A stretch of 38,710 bases of DNA, taken from positions 1 through 38,710 of the forward strand of contig JAGGUQ010000008.1 in assembly GCA_021158435.1 (NCBI GenBank), in the 5' to 3' direction. Below the pieces are notes generated by a model. The model saw only the letters and a program-made list of their open reading frames with translations. It did not search any database and was not told the DNA's origin. The position numbers were made by a program, and so were the translations under genes. Every line of letters begins with the position of its first letter. Position 1 is the first letter of the stretch. Shown here piece by piece: positions 26,078-36,429 of the stretch. Source of the DNA: a bacterium. Lineage in GTDB: Bacteria > Patescibacteriota > Patescibacteriia > UBA2591 > MWDC01.

Positions 26078-26160
26078 ACTTTCAATCTAAATCACTTTTA
26101 GAATAATTGATTCCCTATAAAAATCAAGAATTATTTATAGGAAGCAGGCGAGAAAACTCA

Positions 26161-26265
26161 TTTCCGGATTTCAGGATTCCGAAAGAGATTCCGGAGTCTG
26201 CCTCCGGGAAACTCGTTTGTCCGGAGTCTACCTCCGGAGTCTGCCTCCGGAGACTGCCTCTGGGA
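26161..26265. repeat. GC-rich palindromic element, copy E
   Basis: gattCCGGAGTCTGCCTCCGGGAAACTCGTTTGTCCGGAGTCTACCTCCGGAGTCTGCCTCCGGAGACTGCCTCTGGGAC. Confidence 0.85.
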
Positions 26266-26282
26266 CAAATTCACGAAAAGCA

Positions 26283-26310
26283 AAAAGCCCCTAAATTAAA
26301 AGGGGCTTTT
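26283..26310 (-). terminator. Intrinsic terminator of the 26337-26807 gene
   Basis: AAAAGCCCCT...AGGGGCTTTT perfect inverted repeat with T-tract. Confidence 0.85.
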
Positions 26311-26336
26311 ATTTGTTATTTGTCTACTTACTCTGA

Positions 26337-26807
26337 CTATCTTTTAACTACAAATCCGATTTCATTTTCTAAAAATGAAAGAACCCAAACAAAAGTTAAA
26401 CTGATTTCTCCTTTCTCATTTATTCGCACTGCTGGGTGATAGCGAACCGCAGAGTCTCCCTTCCCATAAGCTTCATCCTCGTAGACATAACCTAAAGCTA
26501 TATACAATCCTGGGGATAAATCCTCCTCTAAAACCAACATTAACAAATCTCTTATTCCTCCTGGCTGAAAGTTCATTGCTGCTATTTCTTTTCTAACTTC
26601 TCCAAAACTTACTCTTTTTTCTGTCGAGTAAAATTTTAGAAGAAAAACTTCTCTTGTTTCTGGTCCTGAATTTATTAATTCTCTGCATTCTAATATCCTT
26701 TTATCCCATACTTTCACTGTTCTTTCTTTGAACAAACTTTCTAAAATCCGGGGGACTGATTTTGCTTCATCTTTTAAAAGATAGGCTTTACTAAGATTTG
26801 TTCTCAT
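26337..26807 (-). CDS. Hypothetical protein, paralog of the 26936-27427 product
   Basis: 156 aa; own SD (AGGAGG), own terminator; shared FQPGGIRDLLMLVL...GYVY...RINEKGEISL pattern. Confidence 0.75.
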   Translation of the reverse strand: MRTNLSKAYLLKDEAKSVPRILESLFKERTVKVWDKRILECRELINSGPETREVFLLKFYSTEKRVSFGEVRKEIAAMNFQPGGIRDLLMLVLEEDLSPGLYIALGYVYEDEAYGKGDSAVRYHPAVRINEKGEISLTFVWVLSFLENEIGFVVKR

Positions 26808-26925
26808 TTTCCCCTCCTTTGTTTATGAATTGTAAAGAAAATTATCTATTACTCTTATATTATTAAAGCAAATTTCCTTAAATCTGTCAAATTTTCTTCT
26901 TGAGCTTACATCAAAAAACAAAAGA

Positions 26926-26950
26926 AAAAGGCCCTTTATAAGGGCCTTTT
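26926..26950 (-). terminator. Intrinsic terminator of the 26936-27427 gene; stop codon lies in the hairpin
   Basis: AAAAGGCCCTT-TAT-AAGGGCCTTTT perfect 11-bp inverted repeat; stop codon 26936-26938. Confidence 0.8.
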
Positions 26951-27427
26951 GCCAAAACAAGCTAAAAACATCGTATTCTTGGTTTCCCACATCTGATGAT
27001 AACGTGGAAGGGAAAAAATTTTTTCTTTTTTGTTAAAAGACAAACTTGGCACTCTTTTTAATCCTTCTTTGTCTATTAAATAAGACCCAAAAGCAACAAA
27101 TGTGCAATGATCAAAATTCTTGATCCTAAAAGCCAAAGCAACTAACTCATAAATTCCTGCTGGTCTTAAGCTCAACCTGTAAATAGTTCGCACAACTAAA
27201 CCTGAGGAAACTTTTGGTTTCAAAAAGCTGCCATCAAAATGCAAACAAGCCACAGATCCTTTTTTTACTCCTTGCTCCCATTCAGGAAAATTTTCTGTGT
27301 TTATTCTTGAATCACAATGAACTGAACCCAATCTTTGAAATGCTTCTTCTAATCTCTGAAAATTCCTTTCAACAAAAAATACTGATGAAAGTACTTCCCT
27401 TTCCCATTCATTAGATAAGGCTTTCAT
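26936..27427 (-). CDS. Hypothetical protein, paralog of the 26337-26807 product
   Basis: 163 aa; SLRPAGIYELVALAF...FGSYLI...SFNKKEKIFSL; strong SD AGGAGG. Confidence 0.75.
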   Translation of the reverse strand: MKALSNEWEREVLSSVFFVERNFQRLEEAFQRLGSVHCDSRINTENFPEWEQGVKKGSVACLHFDGSFLKPKVSSGLVVRTIYRLSLRPAGIYELVALAFRIKNFDHCTFVAFGSYLIDKEGLKRVPSLSFNKKEKIFSLPRYHQMWETKNTMFLACFGKRPL

Positions 27428-27478
27428 TTCCCCTCCTTTTATTTATTGTTTACTTTTTATTTAAAGAACGTACACTTT

Positions 27479-27976
27479 TTATATTATCACTGCAGCAGAT
27501 AAAACGCAAGTAAACGCCTCTTGGCAAACTGTGCTTGCGCTAATAAAAAACTTTTTATCTATTTGCACCCCCCTTTGTTCAAATCCTTGTTCAAGCATTT
27601 TTTCACATTGCTCTTTAGCCTGATCCTCTTCTAAATTAGAAGAAAACTCAAAAATAAGGCCATTTATTTTCTTGTAATCTTGTTTCTTAGGAATACCCAA
27701 ACTAAGAACAGCAGATATTCTTTCTCCTTTTTTCTGACTAAAACAAGCAGCATAAACTACAGGAAGCAAAGAACCTAAAGGAAGTGAAATTGATTTAGAT
27801 TTTAAATCCTTTAAATAAAAAATTTTAGCTTTTGGAGGGACAATGCTGGAAACTCTAATTAAATTATAATTAGCAATACCTGCGTCAAGTAAAGCATTAT
27901 CAAATGCGTTTACCTGACTAATTCCCCTCCCAATTCCTTTAGTTAAGATAACTTTTTTCGGCAGAAATAACTTCAT
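27479..27976 (-). CDS. pdaD: Pyruvoyl-dependent arginine decarboxylase
   Basis: LIRVSSIVPP self-cleavage motif (Ser-Ser), NAFDNALLDAGIANYN, C-terminal domain typical of PvlArgDC. Confidence 0.88.
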   Translation of the reverse strand: MKLFLPKKVILTKGIGRGISQVNAFDNALLDAGIANYNLIRVSSIVPPKAKIFYLKDLKSKSISLPLGSLLPVVYAACFSQKKGERISAVLSLGIPKKQDYKKINGLIFEFSSNLEEDQAKEQCEKMLEQGFEQRGVQIDKKFFISASTVCQEAFTCVLSAAVII

Positions 27977-28033
27977 TTTTCTATGAAAATAAACAAACTT
28001 AAACTTGTCCTAAATATAACAAAAATAAAACTA

Positions 28034-28062
28034 TTGACAAGGAATAATTATGGATATATATT
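28034..28062 (+). promoter_or_regulatory. Sigma70-type promoter for the redox/metal operon
   Basis: TTGACA (28034-28039) - 17 nt - TATATT (28057-28062), about 50 nt upstream of ATG 28114. Confidence 0.65.
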
Positions 28063-28113
28063 CAAAATGAATAAAACAAAATAACAATTTTTAATAATAT
28101 AAAAATCAACAAA

Positions 28114-28458
28114 ATGAAAATAGCAATCAGCTCTAATGGAAAAGATTTAAAAAGTAATATTAGTGAAGTTTTCGCTAGATGCCCTTATTTTTTTATTGCT
28201 GAAATTGAGAACGGAAAAATTCAAAAAACAGAAGCTATAGAAAACATTATTGCAAATCAAATGGTTCGAGCAGCTGGCATTTCAGTTGCCCAATTCATGG
28301 CAGAAAAAAATATTGAAGCTATAATTACGAAAAATGTCGGGCCAAGAGCTCTAGATGTATTAAATCAATTCGGAATAGATATTTATATTGGAGAGGGAAC
28401 AGTAGAAAAAGCCCTCCAAGAATTTATCAATGGAGAACTTAAAAAAATTGAAAAATGA
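28114..28458 (+). CDS. NifX/NafY/ORP-fold (dinitrogenase Fe-Mo cofactor family, PF02579-type) protein 1
   Basis: MKIAISSNGKDLKSNISEVFARCPYFFIAEIE...IITKNVGPRALDVLNQFGIDIYIG. Confidence 0.92.
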   Translation: MKIAISSNGKDLKSNISEVFARCPYFFIAEIENGKIQKTEAIENIIANQMVRAAGISVAQFMAEKNIEAIITKNVGPRALDVLNQFGIDIYIGEGTVEKALQEFINGELKKIEK

Positions 28459-28796
28459 AAATAGCAATTCCAATAAATAATAAAGGTGCTTTAGATAATA
28501 AAGTTGCTCCTCATTTTGGCAAAGCAAATTATTTTTTAATTTATAACACAGAAAAAAAGACTTTTAATATCTTACTCAATCCTGAAACTTCAGGGGGCTC
28601 AGAACTTCCTCCTGATTTTTTACATCGTCAAGGAGTAAAAGCAATTATTGCTTTTAGTTTAGGGCCTAAAGCCTATAATAAATTCAAAAACTACAATATC
28701 AAAACATATAAAGCAATTGAGGAAACAATCGAAAAAAATATCCAAAAATTAGAAAACAATGAACTTAAAGAACTACAAGAAGAAGACATTTTTTAA
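28455..28796 (+). CDS. NifX/NafY/ORP-fold protein 2
   Basis: MKIAIPINNKGALDNKVAPHFGKANYFLIYN...; ATGA overlap with the upstream gene. Confidence 0.9.
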   Translation: MKIAIPINNKGALDNKVAPHFGKANYFLIYNTEKKTFNILLNPETSGGSELPPDFLHRQGVKAIIAFSLGPKAYNKFKNYNIKTYKAIEETIEKNIQKLENNELKELQEEDIF

Positions 28797-28830
28797 TCCA
28801 AAAATCAATCAATATTAACAAAATTGAGCT

Positions 28831-30180
28831 ATGAAAACAGACATTTTAATCATTGGTGGCGGGCCAGCTGGAGTTGTTGCAGCTACCACTGCCAAAAAAC
28901 ATTACCCCCTAAAACAAGTCACTTTGATTAGAAAAGAGAAAAAAGCTGTTATCCCCTGCGGCATTCCTTACATTTTTAACCGTCTTGATTCAGTTGAAAA
29001 AAATTTAATGCCCGACCAGCCATTACTAAACAACCAAATTAATCTAATTATTACAGAAATTACAGAAATTAATCCTAAAGACAAAAAAGTTGTCGCAAAA
29101 AACGGAAATGTTTACAGTTATGACAAATTAATTTTAGCCTTAGGATCAACCCCACAATTAATTCCTATTCCTGGCTCAGAAAAACAAGGAGTGTGGTTAG
29201 TTAAAAAAGATTACGAATATTTAAAAAAACTTCGTCAAGCAGTTTTAAAAAGTAAAAATATAATTATTATTGGCGGCGGATTTATTGGAGTGGAATTTGC
29301 TGAAGAATTAAGCAATATTAAAAATTTAAACATTTATATCATTGAAAAACTAAACCACTGCCTTATTACAAATTTTGATGAGGAGTTTGCCTTAGCTGCA
29401 GAAGAAAAACTAAAAAACAAAGGAGTAAAAATTCTCACTAACAAAACAATAAAACAAATACAAGGAAAAGAGGCAGTAGAATATGTAGAACTAGATAGTG
29501 GAGAAAAAATACCAGCAGATTTAATAATTTTATCAATTGGAGCTCGGCCCAATGTAGATTTAGCAAAAAAAGCAGGTATAAAAACTGAAGAAAAAGGGGG
29601 AATAATTGTAGACGAATACATGAAGACAAATATCCCTGATATCTTTGCTATAGGTGATTGCGCCCAAACTAAAGATTTTATCACTAGCAAAAACATCCCT
29701 GTAATGCTTGCCTCAGTTGCTTCTACTGAGGCTAGAATTGCTGCTAATAATTTATACCAGATAGAACTTATTAGAGAAAACAAAGGGACTGTTGGTGTTT
29801 TTTCAACTTTTATTGATGGATTAGCCCTTGGAGTAGCTGGATTAACAGAAAAAAAAGTTAAACAAGAAAATATTGACTACCTAATTGGCGAAGCTGAAGC
29901 ACCAAATCATCATCCAGCTTATTTACCTGGAACAAAGAAAATTAAAGTTAAACTAATTTTTACTAAATCATCTGAATGTCTCCTCTTAGGAGGAGAAATT
30001 ATGGGGCCAGAAAGCATTGGCGAAATGTTAAATATATTATCTCTAGCCATCCAACAAAAAACTTCACTTTTTGATTTTAACACTTGGCAAATAGCTACTC
30101 ATCCTCTTTTAACTTCAGCACCAACAGTATATCCTCTTATTGCCGCAGCTCAAAATGCCTTATTAAAATTAAAAAAATAA
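28831..30180 (+). CDS. FAD-dependent pyridine nucleotide-disulfide oxidoreductase (CoA-disulfide reductase/NADH oxidase-like)
   Basis: DILIIGGGPAGVVAA, active-site-type PCGIPY, second dinucleotide site IIIIGGGFIGVE, DIFAIGDCA. Confidence 0.93.
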   Translation: MKTDILIIGGGPAGVVAATTAKKHYPLKQVTLIRKEKKAVIPCGIPYIFNRLDSVEKNLMPDQPLLNNQINLIITEITEINPKDKKVVAKNGNVYSYDKLILALGSTPQLIPIPGSEKQGVWLVKKDYEYLKKLRQAVLKSKNIIIIGGGFIGVEFAEELSNIKNLNIYIIEKLNHCLITNFDEEFALAAEEKLKNKGVKILTNKTIKQIQGKEAVEYVELDSGEKIPADLIILSIGARPNVDLAKKAGIKTEEKGGIIVDEYMKTNIPDIFAIGDCAQTKDFITSKNIPVMLASVASTEARIAANNLYQIELIRENKGTVGVFSTFIDGLALGVAGLTEKKVKQENIDYLIGEAEAPNHHPAYLPGTKKIKVKLIFTKSSECLLLGGEIMGPESIGEMLNILSLAIQQKTSLFDFNTWQIATHPLLTSAPTVYPLIAAAQNALLKLKK

Positions 30181-30206
30181 ATCTATCTTTAATTAATAAT
30201 AAAACA

Positions 30207-31073
30207 ATGAAAATCGCAATTACTGGTGGGAAGGGTGGTGTAGGTAAATCAATGGTAGCTACCTCATTAGCAACAGAATTTGCAAAAATCAACAAAACCA
30301 TGCTCATAGATGCTGATGCTGAATGTCCAAACGACCACCTTTTACTCTCTATAAAAAGAAAAAAATATACAGACGTCTATCAGGCAATACCAAAATGGAA
30401 TTTTAAAAAATGCAAAAAATGCGGAAAGTGTGCTTCTGTTTGTAAACAAGATGCTATTATCTTTGTCAAAGGGAAATATCCTGCTTTTGTAAAAGATGCT
30501 TGTATTGGCTGTATGGCTTGTAAAAACGTTTGCCCTTATGGCGCAATAACAGAAGCAAAAAGAAAAATTGGTACGATTTACACTGGCAAAAAGTATAATA
30601 TCAATCTAATTTCTGGCGAACTAAAACTAGGAGAGCTTCCTTCTGGTGAAGTAATAGCTAAACTAAGAAAGCACGCTGACAGAATTAACAAAAAACTAAA
30701 AGCTAGTACTATAATTATAGATTCCCCTCCTGGAATTGGTTGCCCAGTAATTGCCTCCTTGGTTGGAACTGATTATATCATAGCAGTAACTGAACCAACA
30801 CCTTCTGCTCTTTTTGATTTAAAAAGAGTTTTGTATTTAGCTAAATATTTTAAAATAGAACATGGGATTGTCATTAATAAATATGATTTAGCTAAAAACT
30901 TCTCTAAAGAAATAGAAAAATTTGCTAAGAAAAATAAAATTGAAGTCTTAGAAAAAATTCCTTATCAAAAAGATTTTATTAACTCTACCATAAAAATGAA
31001 GCCAGTTGTTGAAATAAACCCAAAATATAAAAAAATATTTAAAAATATCATTGATCAAATAAAATTTAAATAA
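30207..31073 (+). CDS. MinD-superfamily P-loop ATPase with inserted ferredoxin domain
   Basis: Start trimmed to MKIAITGGKGGVGKS (ORF-track start 30084 lies inside the upstream gene); CKKCGKCASVCKQ and CIGCMACKNVCP give two 4Fe-4S motifs. Confidence 0.95.
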   Translation: MKIAITGGKGGVGKSMVATSLATEFAKINKTMLIDADAECPNDHLLLSIKRKKYTDVYQAIPKWNFKKCKKCGKCASVCKQDAIIFVKGKYPAFVKDACIGCMACKNVCPYGAITEAKRKIGTIYTGKKYNINLISGELKLGELPSGEVIAKLRKHADRINKKLKASTIIIDSPPGIGCPVIASLVGTDYIIAVTEPTPSALFDLKRVLYLAKYFKIEHGIVINKYDLAKNFSKEIEKFAKKNKIEVLEKIPYQKDFINSTIKMKPVVEINPKYKKIFKNIIDQIKFK

Positions 31074-31074
31074 G

Positions 31075-32154
31075 ATGAAAGAAAAAATTGCCTTTATTTC
31101 AATATTAGCTAATGCAGTTTTAGCTGGAGGAAAAATCACTATTGGTATTTTTTCCAGCTCAACTGCTATCTTGGCTGAGGGTATCCATTCTTTTATGGAT
31201 ATTTTTTCTTCTGCTATCAGCTATATTGGCATTAAAATTTCTAGAAAACCAGAAGATCAAAAGCATCCCTACGGTCATCACAAATTTGAAGTTCTGGCTG
31301 GTTTACTAATTACTTTAATTCTATTCGGAACAGGTATTGGAATTATTTATGAAGCCTACCAAAACTTTCTAAATCCTTCTCCACTAAAAATCCAGGGCTT
31401 GGCTTTTGGAATAATGATTCTTTCAGCACTAGTTAACGAAATAATGGCTCGCTTAAAAATTCATTTTGGTAAAAAAGAGAATTCAATGGCCTTACTTTCT
31501 GATGGTTTCCACTCCAGAGCAGATGTTTATACTTCAATTGTGGTTTTTGCTAGTTTGCTTTTATCTAAATACTGGATTTACATTGACCCTTTGCTTGCTC
31601 TGCTTATTGGCCTTTACATTATTAAAGAATCATTCTCTTTAGGCAAAGAAGCAGCTGATTCTTTACTTGATGCCTCAGCAGGTCCAGAGATTGAAGAAAA
31701 AATAAAATCAATTGTTAAAAAAGAAAATATTGAACTTGATTCTTTAAAAACGCAGAAAAAGGGATCTGCTGTTACAGCTAATTTAGAAATAAAACTTCCC
31801 AGCAATCTAAATATAAAAGAAGCAACTGAAATTTCTAAAAATCTAAGAAAAAAATTAATGAAAGAAATTGAAACCCTTTCCTATGTAGCTATTCAGATTA
31901 AAAGTCATGAGATTGAAACTAATTTTTACAAACCAGATGTTAGTCCTATTCTTCGCCGAGGTTTTGGTATAGGTAGAGGCTTTGGATGGCAGCGAAGGGG
32001 TAGATTTAAAGGAGAAATAAAAGGAGCAGCTGGACGAGGTCCAAGTGGTTATTGTGTTTGCCCAAAATGCGGGTATAAAATTCCTCATCAACGCGGAGTC
32101 CCCTGCTCTACACTTCAATGCCCAAATTGTAAAATTAATCTACAAAGAAAATAA
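31075..32154 (+). CDS. Cation diffusion facilitator (CDF) transporter fused to a C-terminal Gly/Arg linker and Cys-rich ribbon
   Basis: AEGIHSFMDIFSS, HPYGHHKFE, DGFHSRADVYTS; C-terminal GYCVCPKCGYKIPHQRGVPCSTLQCPNC. Confidence 0.93.
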   Translation: MKEKIAFISILANAVLAGGKITIGIFSSSTAILAEGIHSFMDIFSSAISYIGIKISRKPEDQKHPYGHHKFEVLAGLLITLILFGTGIGIIYEAYQNFLNPSPLKIQGLAFGIMILSALVNEIMARLKIHFGKKENSMALLSDGFHSRADVYTSIVVFASLLLSKYWIYIDPLLALLIGLYIIKESFSLGKEAADSLLDASAGPEIEEKIKSIVKKENIELDSLKTQKKGSAVTANLEIKLPSNLNIKEATEISKNLRKKLMKEIETLSYVAIQIKSHEIETNFYKPDVSPILRRGFGIGRGFGWQRRGRFKGEIKGAAGRGPSGYCVCPKCGYKIPHQRGVPCSTLQCPNCKINLQRK

Positions 32155-32181
32155 ATTTAACTCTTCTTTAAAGAGAAATAG

Positions 32182-32217
32182 AAAATTCTGCCTTTATTAA
32201 TATCTGGCAGAATTTTT
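32182..32217 (+). terminator. Intrinsic terminator of the redox/metal operon
   Basis: AAAATTCTGCC...GGCAGAATTTTTT inverted repeat with T-tract. Confidence 0.8.
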
Positions 32218-32226
32218 TACTTAAAC

Positions 32227-32290
32227 GGTTTCCCGGAGGTAGACTCCGGAGGTAGACTCCGGGAAATTCTTGAACTGTGTCTGGGAAACC
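32227..32290. repeat. GC-rich palindromic element, copy F (reverse orientation)
   Basis: GGTTTCCCGGAGGTAGACTCCGGAGGTAGACTCCGGGAAATTCTTGAACTGTGTCTGGGAAACC; perfect 8-bp terminal inverted repeat GGTTTCCC/GGGAAACC. Confidence 0.85.
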
Positions 32291-32306
32291 CCTGAAGATC
32301 AAACTC

Positions 32307-32801
32307 TTAGGGTTTAGTAAATTTGCCATAAAGCTGAGTAAGCACTTCCTCTTTTGATTCTGCTAAGAGCGCCTCGATGCCTTCTTTTTTTAACTTATCT
32401 CTTTTTCTTTGAGGTAATTTCTGTGATCCTTCAAATACCCTTAAAATTGCCTCCTCGCTGTCGTCTGCTGTAATTCTATTTATAGAAATCTTCCCGCACC
32501 CAGTACATTCATGAATCAACATAAGCTCTCCTTGCCGACGTCTCCCATATTTATCTACACCCTCATGCTTAAATGTTAATCCAATTGGTTTCATTCCTGC
32601 TTGACATTGAGACATTCTATCTCCTGGCTTTTCTAAATCAACATGTTTAGACCACAAACAAAACGGGCAATGATTACGATGTGCCGTCCCTATAAATCTT
32701 GAAAAAGGAACCCATTGTTTGCAATAGCAACAACGAAATCCTTTCTCTCCCCCCTCTAACCTTAACCCTTCCCTTTTCCTTCTCCTACGTGCAATAAACA
32801 T
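32307..32801 (-). CDS. RNHCP-domain zinc-binding protein
   Basis: CCYCKQWVPF...GTAHRNHCPFCLWSKHVD matches the RNHCP signature. Confidence 0.9.
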   Translation of the reverse strand: MFIARRRRKREGLRLEGGEKGFRCCYCKQWVPFSRFIGTAHRNHCPFCLWSKHVDLEKPGDRMSQCQAGMKPIGLTFKHEGVDKYGRRRQGELMLIHECTGCGKISINRITADDSEEAILRVFEGSQKLPQRKRDKLKKEGIEALLAESKEEVLTQLYGKFTKP

Positions 32802-32857
32802 TTGCCTTCTTATTTAAACCTCCCTCTAAACAAGATGCCATCCAAACCATTTTATTG

Positions 32858-32931
32858 TGGTGGACCTAGGCAGAATCGAACTGCCATCTGCGCATTGCAA
32901 ATGCGCTGTTCTACCATTGAACTATAGGCCC
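32858..32931 (-). tRNA. tRNA-Ala (anticodon TGC), CCA encoded
   Basis: Cloverleaf GGGCCTA/TAGGTCC acceptor, GTTC/GAAC D-stem, GCGCA-TTTGCAA-TGCGC anticodon arm, GGCAG-TTCGATT-CTGCC T-arm, ACCA end. Confidence 0.96.
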
Positions 32932-34008: not shown

Positions 34009-36429
34009 CTAAACAACAAAATTAATTAACTTATTAGGGACAAAAACAACTTTCTTTATTTCTTTATTTTCTAACCACTTTTTAACTTTAGGCCTATTTA
34101 AAGCCATATTTTTAACTTCTTCCTCTGAAACATCTTGACTTACTATTAGTTTATCTCTTAGCTTACCATTAATCTGAATAATTATCGTAAATTCTGTTTG
34201 TTTAACTAAAGCTGGATCATATTCAGGCCAAGGTTGCTGATGAATAGAAAATTCTCCTCCTAATATCTCCCAAATCTCTTCACTAAGATGAGGGGCAAAA
34301 GGGGCTAAAAGTTTAATAAATCTTTTTCCATCTTCCAAAGAAATGCTTTCTTCTTTTTCCCAAAGGTTTGCAAATTCAATTAAACAAGCAATTGCTGTGT
34401 TATATTTTTTATTTTCTATATCTTCTGTTACTTTTTTAATTGTTCTATGTAAAGCTCTTTCCAGATTCTTTGTTGTTTGCTGATGAAGGTTAACTTTCAG
34501 GTTCAAGGATAAACGAAAAACTCTATTTAAAAATCTTTTTATTCCAATAATACCTGTTGGATTAAAATCTCCCCCTTGATCAAATGGTCCTAAAAACATT
34601 AAATACATTCTCAAAGCATCCGCCCCATATTTTTTAATATACTCATCAGGAATAACAACATTCCCTTTATTTTTACTCATTTTCGCTCCTTGGCTAATTA
34701 TTAAACCATGGGCATAAAAATTAGTAAAAGGCTCCTCGAAATCAATATATCCTAAATCAAATAATACCATAGTAATAAACCGAGCGTACATTAAATGCAA
34801 GACAGAATGCTCTGCTCCGCCAATATACATATTAACTGGAAGCCACTTCTTAGTAATCCGTTTGTCGAATGGTTTGTCTTTGAATTTAATTGAAGGATAA
34901 CGCAAAAAATACCAAGAACTATCTAAAAATGTATCAGAAACATCTGTTTCTCTTCTTGCTGGGGCCCCACAAACAGGGCAATTTACTTTAAGCCACTTTT
35001 CTGCTTTATCTAAAGGAGACTCTCCAGTACCAATTGGCCGATAATCTTTTAAATAAGGCAATTTTACTGGCAATTCCTCTTCAGGAACTGGGACCCAACC
35101 ACATTTAGGGCATTTTATCATTGGAATTGGCGGCCCCCAATAACGCTGTCTGGAAATACACCAATCTCTTAATTTGTAAATCACTTCTCTTTTCCCCCAC
35201 TCTCTTTCTTCCAAAAACTCTGTAATTTTTTCTTTAGCTTCCCTGCTATTTAAACCATTCAAAAACTCTGAATTTATTATTTTACCATGCCCTTCGTAAA
35301 CTTTATCAATACTTGTAATTGCAGAATCATCTCCATCTTCACTAACAATAACTCTAATTACTTCTAAATTAAATTTCTGAGCAAACTCAAAATCCCTTTT
35401 ATCATGAGCAGGAACGCCAACTACAGCTCCTGTTCCTACATTATCTAAAACAAAATCACTTACCCAAATGGGCATTTTTTTGCCATTCAATTTATTCAAA
35501 CAATAAGAACCAGTAAAAACACCTGTTTTTTCTTTGTTATCTGCTGTTTCTTCTGGAGATACTTTTCTTTTTTTTACCCCTTCAATGTATTCAACTACTT
35601 GCTTTCTGTAATTATCTTTTGTAATTTTCAAAACTAATGGGTGGAAAGGAGATAAAACAACAAATGTTGCTCCAAAATTTGTTTCTGGCCGAGTGGTAAA
35701 ACAAACAATTTTTTCTTTTTGACCAACAACCTCATATTCAATATTTACTCCCTCAGAACGCCCAATCCAATTCCTTTGGGCAATTTTTACTTTTTCTGAC
35801 CAATTAATTTCATCTAAATTATTTAAAAGTCTCTCTGCATACTTAGTAATCCTAAAAAACCATTGTTCTAATTCTTTTACTACTACCTCTGTGCCGCACC
35901 TCTCACACTTGCCACTAATAACTTGTTCGTCAGCCAAAACAGTTTTGCAAGAAGGACACCAATTAACTGCTGATTTTTGTCGATAAGCTAAACCATTTTT
36001 AAACATCTGAATAAAAAGCCATTGAGTCCATTTGTAATAATCTGGATCATAGGTTTCTAAAGTGTTTTCCCAAGCGTATCCATTTCCTGTTGCCTGAAGT
36101 TGGGAATAAAAATATTTTTCTGTTTTTTTAGCAAGTTTTAAAGGATGTTTATTTATTTTTAAAGCATAATTTTCTGAATGAATTCCAAATCCGTCTAAAC
36201 CAATTGGTTCAAAAACATCATATCCTTGCATTCTTTTAAATCTGCCATAAATATCTGACCCAGTAAAAGCATACATATTGCCAACATGCAAGCCTTTAGC
36301 TGAAGGATAAGGAAACATCATTAGGTTATAAAAAGGTTTTTCTGCATTTTCTAAATCAGGCTGATAAATTCTTTTTTTTCTCCAAATTTTTTGCCACTTT
36401 TTTTCAATTTTGTTATGTTTATACTCCAT
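34009..36429 (-). CDS. leuS: Leucyl-tRNA synthetase
   Basis: FPYPSAKGLHVGNMYAFTGSDIYGRFKRMQGYDV, CP1 editing region, KMSKNKGN. Confidence 0.97.
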   Translation of the reverse strand: MEYKHNKIEKKWQKIWRKKRIYQPDLENAEKPFYNLMMFPYPSAKGLHVGNMYAFTGSDIYGRFKRMQGYDVFEPIGLDGFGIHSENYALKINKHPLKLAKKTEKYFYSQLQATGNGYAWENTLETYDPDYYKWTQWLFIQMFKNGLAYRQKSAVNWCPSCKTVLADEQVISGKCERCGTEVVVKELEQWFFRITKYAERLLNNLDEINWSEKVKIAQRNWIGRSEGVNIEYEVVGQKEKIVCFTTRPETNFGATFVVLSPFHPLVLKITKDNYRKQVVEYIEGVKKRKVSPEETADNKEKTGVFTGSYCLNKLNGKKMPIWVSDFVLDNVGTGAVVGVPAHDKRDFEFAQKFNLEVIRVIVSEDGDDSAITSIDKVYEGHGKIINSEFLNGLNSREAKEKITEFLEEREWGKREVIYKLRDWCISRQRYWGPPIPMIKCPKCGWVPVPEEELPVKLPYLKDYRPIGTGESPLDKAEKWLKVNCPVCGAPARRETDVSDTFLDSSWYFLRYPSIKFKDKPFDKRITKKWLPVNMYIGGAEHSVLHLMYARFITMVLFDLGYIDFEEPFTNFYAHGLIISQGAKMSKNKGNVVIPDEYIKKYGADALRMYLMFLGPFDQGGDFNPTGIIGIKRFLNRVFRLSLNLKVNLHQQTTKNLERALHRTIKKVTEDIENKKYNTAIACLIEFANLWEKEESISLEDGKRFIKLLAPFAPHLSEEIWEILGGEFSIHQQPWPEYDPALVKQTEFTIIIQINGKLRDKLIVSQDVSEEEVKNMALNRPKVKKWLENKEIKKVVFVPNKLINFVV

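Follow-up and report, generated by a model that had tools for sequence, protein, structure and literature searches.

Ferredoxin-containing MinD ATPases encoded in pairs beside NifX-fold proteins are common in anaerobes. What, then, is the lone ATPase of this kind that a bacterium of the Patescibacteriota (lineage UBA2591, MWDC01) encodes beside two NifX-fold proteins in a 38,710-nucleotide stretch of its genome (GenBank assembly GCA_021158435.1, contig JAGGUQ010000008.1), which is one entire contig and is called the window below? The gene belongs to a packed plus-strand set of five (28114–32154) in the order NifX1, NifX2, flavoprotein, MinD ATPase, and CDF transporter. A preliminary description of this locus, drawn up from the nucleotide sequence, had counted one MinD and remarked that tandem pairs are frequent in related clusters. 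Both statements hold: a second copy was not found in the window genome or in 11 further genomes with a solo MinD that were searched whole, and two paralogues, MinD1 and MinD2, occur together in 50 loci, neither of them being present in any solo locus. What the preliminary description did not see is that the single protein is, as judged from its sequence, a hybrid of the two, and the presence of such a hybrid ATPase across two domains of life is the novelty that stands out. In the reading that we consider probable, the five genes represent a laterally acquired cassette of the orange protein (ORP)/NifX–MinD kind with a deletion-made hybrid MinD, which would serve the ATP- and electron-driven handling of metal-sulfur species together with export by the CDF protein.

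A mosaic MinD with a MinD1-like and a MinD2-like half

The minD gene lies at 30207–31073 on the plus strand. Its start is the ATG at 30207, which gives a product of 288 amino acids; an alternative open reading frame of 329 amino acids, starting from a TTG, overlaps the flavoprotein gene. The protein has the CbiA/ParA fold, the deviant Walker A motif GGKGGVGKS and two 4Fe-4S motifs, and shares the latter two features with the ferredoxin-inserted MinD ATPases; the closest folds are those of MinD, FleN, ApbC, and the nitrogenase Fe protein. The Walker A sequence and eight ferredoxin cysteines are invariant throughout the solo clade. The MinD lacks the CxxC of Mrp/NBP35, only C179 being conserved there, and has a ferredoxin insert instead. 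A scan with the MinD alignment yielded a neighbourhood sample of 80 loci, and the tree of 132 MinD sequences divides into three groups, MinD1 (61 sequences), MinD2 (50), and the solo proteins (21, the window MinD and 20 relatives).

In a sliding-window comparison, the solo protein tracks MinD1 over roughly its first 130 residues and MinD2 thereafter, and its identity to the non-matching paralogue stays near the MinD1–MinD2 baseline. The best single break falls between residues 129 and 130 with a score of 49.3, compared to a maximum of 27.8 in 5,000 permutations. The N-terminal part of the window MinD (residues 1–129, positions 30207–30593, plus strand), which carries the Walker A motif and both 4Fe-4S motifs, is nearer to MinD1 in all 50 pairs (means of 0.56 and 0.36 for MinD1 and MinD2, respectively), and the C-terminal part (residues 130–288, positions 30594–31073, plus strand), which comprises the remaining ATPase core, is nearer to MinD2 in 50 of 50 (0.33 and 0.46). 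The pair of the archaeal locus L099 illustrates this: residues 1–127 of the window protein share 63% identity with its MinD1 and residues 158–282 share 54% with its MinD2, whereas comparison with the opposite paralogues gives 35% and 33%. Both genes of this pair (L099 8001–9688, on a Pacearchaeota contig) are frameshifted, through either decay or assembly error.

Diagnostic residues follow the same division. The DxECPNDH stretch at residues 37–44 is MinD1-like, and the switch II sequence DSAAGxGCPV is MinD2-like. In the predicted structure of the solo MinD (predicted local distance difference test score, pLDDT, of 93.2), the break is located at a turn between the strands 114–129 and 132–139, which is where the chain exits the ferredoxin insert. 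Three positions of the C half (186, 204, and 212 in the numbering of the break scan) look MinD1-like and speak against so clean a division. From these sequence comparisons and the half trees described below, we regard the mosaic nature of the solo MinD, MinD1-like in front and MinD2-like behind, as established.

Deletion or ancestor

How could such a mosaic arise? In all 50 pair loci, the two genes share a strand and that of MinD1 comes first; therefore one deletion between the paralogues gives the order of an N half of MinD1 followed by a C half of MinD2. Alternatively, the solo protein may be the unduplicated ancestor, from which MinD1 and MinD2 were derived by divergence in opposite halves (subfunctionalisation). 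Unrooted half trees place the solo proteins with MinD1 for the N half and with MinD2 for the C half, each with 100% support in the Shimodaira–Hasegawa-like approximate likelihood ratio test (SH-aLRT). Nesting of the solo group in either paralogue is not demonstrable in half trees without an outgroup; the hypotheses that MinD1 is one clade and that MinD2 is one clade are not rejected in them, and the resulting trifurcation is compatible with a solo ancestor. Rooting with Mrp/ParA outgroups recovers a MinD1 plus solo clade in the N-half tree (support 98/94) and places the solo proteins inside MinD2 in the C-half trees (83/99 and 82/89), that is, within each paralogue.

Trees in which the solo form is ancestral are lower in likelihood by 13.9 (N half) and 7.1 (C half) log units. 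Approximately unbiased (AU) tests do not reject them outright (p = 0.068 and 0.21, respectively), which weighs against the deletion. Such an ancestor, however, requires a many-fold speed-up of the N half of MinD2 and the C half of MinD1, with the other halves remaining static; the stem lengths in the half trees, in changes per site, are 1.1 and 1.6. Furthermore, the solo group is shallow and, among the loci found, was seen only in Patescibacteria and DPANN archaea, whereas pairs are more widespread in them. The solo form as ancestor is disfavoured, and we consider it improbable. An in-frame deletion between tandem minD1 and minD2 genes is the favoured, although not proved, origin of the one-gene hybrid suggested by these trees.

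Following such a deletion, the hybrid gene would have spread among Patescibacteria and DPANN archaea, and its product may dimerise with itself in an ATP-dependent manner, replacing the MinD1–MinD2 heterodimer. To the fuller proposal, in which a tandem ferredoxin-MinD pair collapsed by one deletion to a self-sufficient, homodimerising hybrid within a minimal ORP-like metal/redox machine that moves between Patescibacteria and DPANN, we give about an even chance. The prediction that follows from the one-gene hybrid is that a single N half together with a single C half is enough, and at which point the two meet. This natural version, found in genomes of about 0.5–1.6 Mb, is the least complex one for expression and structure determination.

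Cassette partners and proposed function

The genes around the solo minD recur in relatives. Two other families of the window's order carry the arrangements DUF5320-NifX1-NifX2-MinD-[DsbD/glutaredoxin]-CDF-DUF134-FeoA-FeoB (genome G018, locus L014) and DUF5320-NifX1-PanD-NifX2-MinD-CDF-DUF134 (G008, L015). NifX genes are found within 6 kb of minD in 19 of the 21 solo loci, and the other two end at a contig edge upstream of minD, after 69 bases (L027) and 1.9 kb (L037). The further partners in these 21 loci are DUF134 (16), DUF5320 (12), CDF (10), and DsbD (8). The window cassette contains neither DUF134 nor DUF5320, which counts against the reading preferred here. Metal importers are also encoded in cassettes, namely ABC-3 and its ATPase (L022, L036), ZIP (L028, L030, L037), and FeoAB (L014).

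The preliminary description had held that the five proteins belong together and had named a neighbourhood conserved in no relative as the finding that would speak against this; the neighbourhood recurs, as described above, in two further families of the order, and many Patescibacteria and DPANN archaea also have it. Almost all of the loci were recovered from assembled metagenomes, from which a chance or artefactual association could result. Nevertheless, three families within a single order share the gene set, many independent assemblies contain it, and the solo mosaic is present in 21 genomes with flanks that fit their hosts. A chance neighbourhood is ruled out by this conservation, and we assign an artefact a negligible probability.

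The best evidence that the parts of the cassette form one system comes, at the level of sequence, from domain fusions. A zinc ribbon of the type found at the C-terminus of the window CDF is elsewhere attached to DUF134 (some 25 loci) or to NifX (L070), or is free-standing (more than 12). In some CDFs, a PF02579 tail takes the place of the ribbon (L046, 60.6 bits), and in L024 NifX1 and NifX2 are fused as one protein. Because CDF, DUF134, and NifX are each joined to the ribbon, CDF to NifX, and NifX to NifX, the parts are likely to act together, and fusions that join CDF export, zinc ribbon, DUF134, and NifX make metal handling directly testable. Aspartate 1-decarboxylase (PanD, PF02261) is encoded inside several cassettes, for example at L015 3405–3746 and L028 891–1232. 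No paper on this cassette was found in the literature searched.

The CDF gene as a whole extends over 31075–32154 on the plus strand. Its transporter core (31075–31935, plus strand; PF01545, Cation_efflux, 176.2 bits; ZT_dimer, PF16916, 29.4 bits) has an HxxxD motif in each of transmembrane helices (TM) 2 and 5, and it is followed by a linker and, at the C-terminus, a zinc ribbon about 45 residues long (CxCxxC...CxxxxCxxC; together 31936–32154, plus strand) that had been missed in the preliminary description. The six cysteines and one histidine of the ribbon are invariant across 17 CDFs. The protein is a clear family member (TIGR01297, 249 bits versus a cut-off of 82) and reaches the threshold of no CDF equivalog model; its matches among solved structures are FieF/YiiP, and its structure model (pLDDT 70, about 30 in the linker) is usable for helices only. 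Like FieF/YiiP, ZnT, and MamM/MamB, it combines the CDF fold with a dimerisation domain and a TM2/TM5 metal site, but it has HxxxD in TM2, where FieF has DxxxD, and carries the ribbon. The HD-HD arrangement has been linked to selectivity for zinc over cadmium (Hoch et al., PNAS 2012, as cited in PMC11549101). Most ribbon-tailed CDFs have HD-HD. In the CDFs of relatives, the TM2 site is HD, DD, or ND, and this variation, contrary to a simple zinc assignment, makes the specificity uncertain. Metal import or efflux had both been proposed for the transporter; the sequence makes an exporter with a mostly zinc-type site more likely than an importer, and only the efflux half of the proposal is retained.

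NifX1 (114 amino acids, 28114–28458, plus strand; PF02579, 69.5 bits) and NifX2 (113 amino acids, 28455–28796, plus strand; 72.2 bits) both have the NifX/ORP fold and score well above the cut-off of 26.3. The closest solved structure to NifX1 is MTH1175 (1eo1, 86 bits), the D. gigas ORP (2wfb) being a weaker match (35 bits), and an FxRCPYF motif is common to NifX1 and its orthologues. NifX2 belongs to a cysteine-poor subtype (window, L022, L083, L036), in which the FGRC cysteine typical of most NifX2 proteins is replaced. Both proteins end shortly past the PF02579 domain and have no cationic, glycine-rich C-terminal tail of the IssA type. A third, solitary NifX-like gene is located directly upstream of a conjugation-type ATPase at L003 1438–1788 (G000:C11), and weaker single PF02579 genes are present in several relatives of the window's order.

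The remaining member (449 amino acids, 28831–30180, plus strand; Pyr_redox_2, 229.8 bits) is an FAD-dependent flavoprotein that resembles CoA-disulfide and CoA-persulfide reductases (TIGR03385; PDB 3cgb, 8a56) in its FAD fold and in the active-site cysteine of its PCGIPY motif, with 6pfz as a further structural match. It differs from them in having no rhodanese domain and in scoring below the equivalog cut-off (259.9 versus 578.8 bits). The preliminary description had it supply sulfur or electrons to the other proteins. Supply of sulfur is possible, but since the flavoprotein is present in just three of the 21 solo loci, a rarity that also counts against the preferred reading, it is an optional component.

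ORP complexes pair PF02579 proteins with ferredoxin-MinD pairs, and MrpORP transfers Fe-S (PMC6345978). The cassette shares with the complex of Desulfovibrio vulgaris (Orp3/Orp4/Orp5/Orp8/MrpORP; PMC6345978), also from an anaerobe, a PF02579 protein, which in the window is of the one-domain, Orp8-like form, and a MinD-like ATPase with two 4Fe-4S motifs. It has one mosaic MinD in place of the Orp3–Orp4 pair, however, none of its five proteins matches NF041136 (MrpORP) near the 450-bit cut-off, and the cassette partners are CDF, DUF134, DUF5320, DsbD, or the flavoprotein instead. Because of the single mosaic MinD and the lack of MrpORP, the cassette, whose nearest known counterpart is the Desulfovibrio ORP system, is, on sequence criteria, a variant of the ORP/NifX–MinD kind and not a member of the ORP group. 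The tandem MinD1–MinD2 cassettes of DPANN archaea and bacteria have the same neighbours (NifX, DUF134, DUF5320, CDF, DsbD) but two ATPase genes in fixed order and often a NifX-tailed CDF.

Combining these comparisons, we propose that the cassette may use ATP and electrons to handle a metal-sulfur species, with NifX-like proteins as its carriers, and may in addition export divalent metal. Four [4Fe-4S] clusters per MinD dimer would deliver ATP-gated low-potential electrons to NifX1 and NifX2, which could hold metal or metal-sulfide species. As an optional thiol/persulfide reductase driven by NAD(P)H, the flavoprotein may feed the system, a part taken by DsbD/glutaredoxin in other versions, and the CDF, with its HD-HD, zinc-type site, would export the surplus divalent cation, its ribbon being a putative cytosolic sensor or docking tail.

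Two narrower functions must be weighed against this proposal. The whole function may be homeostasis of a divalent metal (zinc, iron, or manganese), with NifX proteins as buffers, the ribbon and DUF134 as sensors, the CDF as exporter, and the ferredoxin-MinD regulating or placing the transporter. The CDF, ZIP, ABC-3, and FeoAB genes within cassettes, the zinc ribbon common to CDF and DUF134, and the HD-HD site of most ribbon-tailed CDFs are consistent with this, but electron transfer as well is suggested by the eight conserved ferredoxin cysteines and by partners of a redox type (DsbD/glutaredoxin, flavoprotein), and we hold homeostasis as the sole function to be a tentative, rather doubtful alternative. 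Similarly, NifX1 and NifX2 could store and deliver Fe-S clusters or thioferrate, like IssA, the thioferrate-storing protein of Pyrococcus furiosus (PMC5524996), or the Di-Nase domain of MrpORP, with the ATPase reducing or mobilising the store. Both IssA and MrpORP belong to PF02579 and bind Fe-S (PMC5524996, PMC6345978), and MTH1175, the best solved match of NifX1, was the template on which the IssA domain was modelled (PMC5524996). On the other hand, the window NifX proteins share with IssA the PF02579 fold and not the long cationic, glycine-rich tail, they are encoded beside an ATPase and a CDF, and the MinD has the ferredoxin insert instead of the Mrp/NBP35 CxxC; we consider such storage possible but on the unlikely side. 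A true NifX role in nitrogenase cofactor maturation, which the preliminary description had brought in through the FeMo cofactor, is suggested by the family name only; no nitrogenase-type protein (PF00148) was found in the 98% complete window genome, so this link is ruled out, its probability being practically nil. Overall, the observations of that description are confirmed and its interpretation is partly supported.

Operon, distribution, and lateral transfer

The five-gene operon is real. Its genes, all of which belong to the families originally named, are separated by −4, 34, 26, and 1 bases, the first junction being the 4-base ATGA overlap of NifX1 and NifX2 already described, and the genes on either side are on the minus strand. 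An own promoter and terminator had been proposed. The operon ends in an intrinsic terminator (32180–32218, plus strand; 13-bp stem and T run, −15.4 kcal/mol, z = −6.5, none of 200 shuffles being equally good), which the terminator scan had omitted from its list because its 13-nt loop exceeds the loop limit. The promoter-like site TTGACA-N17-TATATT (28034–28062, plus strand) is the best in the region, with 11 of 12 consensus positions, but it is a consensus match only, and promoter-like matches in the region overall are not above chance (27 versus 20.5 ± 4.9). The GC content of the cassette, overall and at third codon positions (GC3), is similar to that of the remainder of the window. At 551,941 bases, the genome is reduced, as had been stated, and it encodes a SUF core protein.

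The cassette is a patchy accessory element conserved in Patescibacteria and DPANN archaea. It is present in 3 of 26 genomes of the window's order, spread over three families, and any such MinD is found in 9 of 380 genomes of the phylum sample. Bacterial and archaeal solo MinDs are about 70–77% identical to the window MinD, the deepest (L037) being 62% identical. Since such close MinDs occur in bacterial and archaeal contexts and the distribution is patchy, lateral acquisition, already raised in the preliminary description, is indicated. The archaeal solo MinDs were monophyletic in 0 of 200 bootstrap trees; set against this, a single archaeal group among the solo proteins, although disfavoured, is not rejected (AU p = 0.071). 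Mis-binning is an unlikely cause of the mixture because domain-specific genes are located in the flanks: L7Ae (L023), DUF655 (L032), and Kae1/TsaD (L037) at archaeal loci, and bS6 (L031), bL20 (L035), and MraW (L083) at bacterial ones. We regard it as a clear example of several genes that ultrasmall bacteria and archaea share as one cassette.

In the congener G001, which has no cassette, 90 bases separate tgt from murG, compared to 6.8 kb in the window. This 6.8-kb region (26078–32921), absent from G001, also contains a pyruvoyl-dependent arginine decarboxylase gene (27479–27976), two ORFs of unknown kind, an RNHCP protein gene, and tRNA-Ala; leuS (34009–36429), which adjoins murG in the window, is missing at that place in G001. 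The gene for a large serine recombinase lies next to the 3′ end of tRNA-Lys, directly upstream of the G018 cassette (L014 6277–7840). Attachment repeats were not found at tRNA-Ala in the window or at tRNA-Lys in the stretch of L014 examined, and integration at either site is unsupported. Repeat units of the CCGGAGTCTGC type with a 13-base period form intergenic arrays in the window (26186–26270 and 32233–32263), that is, also on the flanks of the cassette region, and at many other places in the genome, with 96 matches at two or fewer mismatches in 0.55 Mb, compared to 0 for the reversed control.

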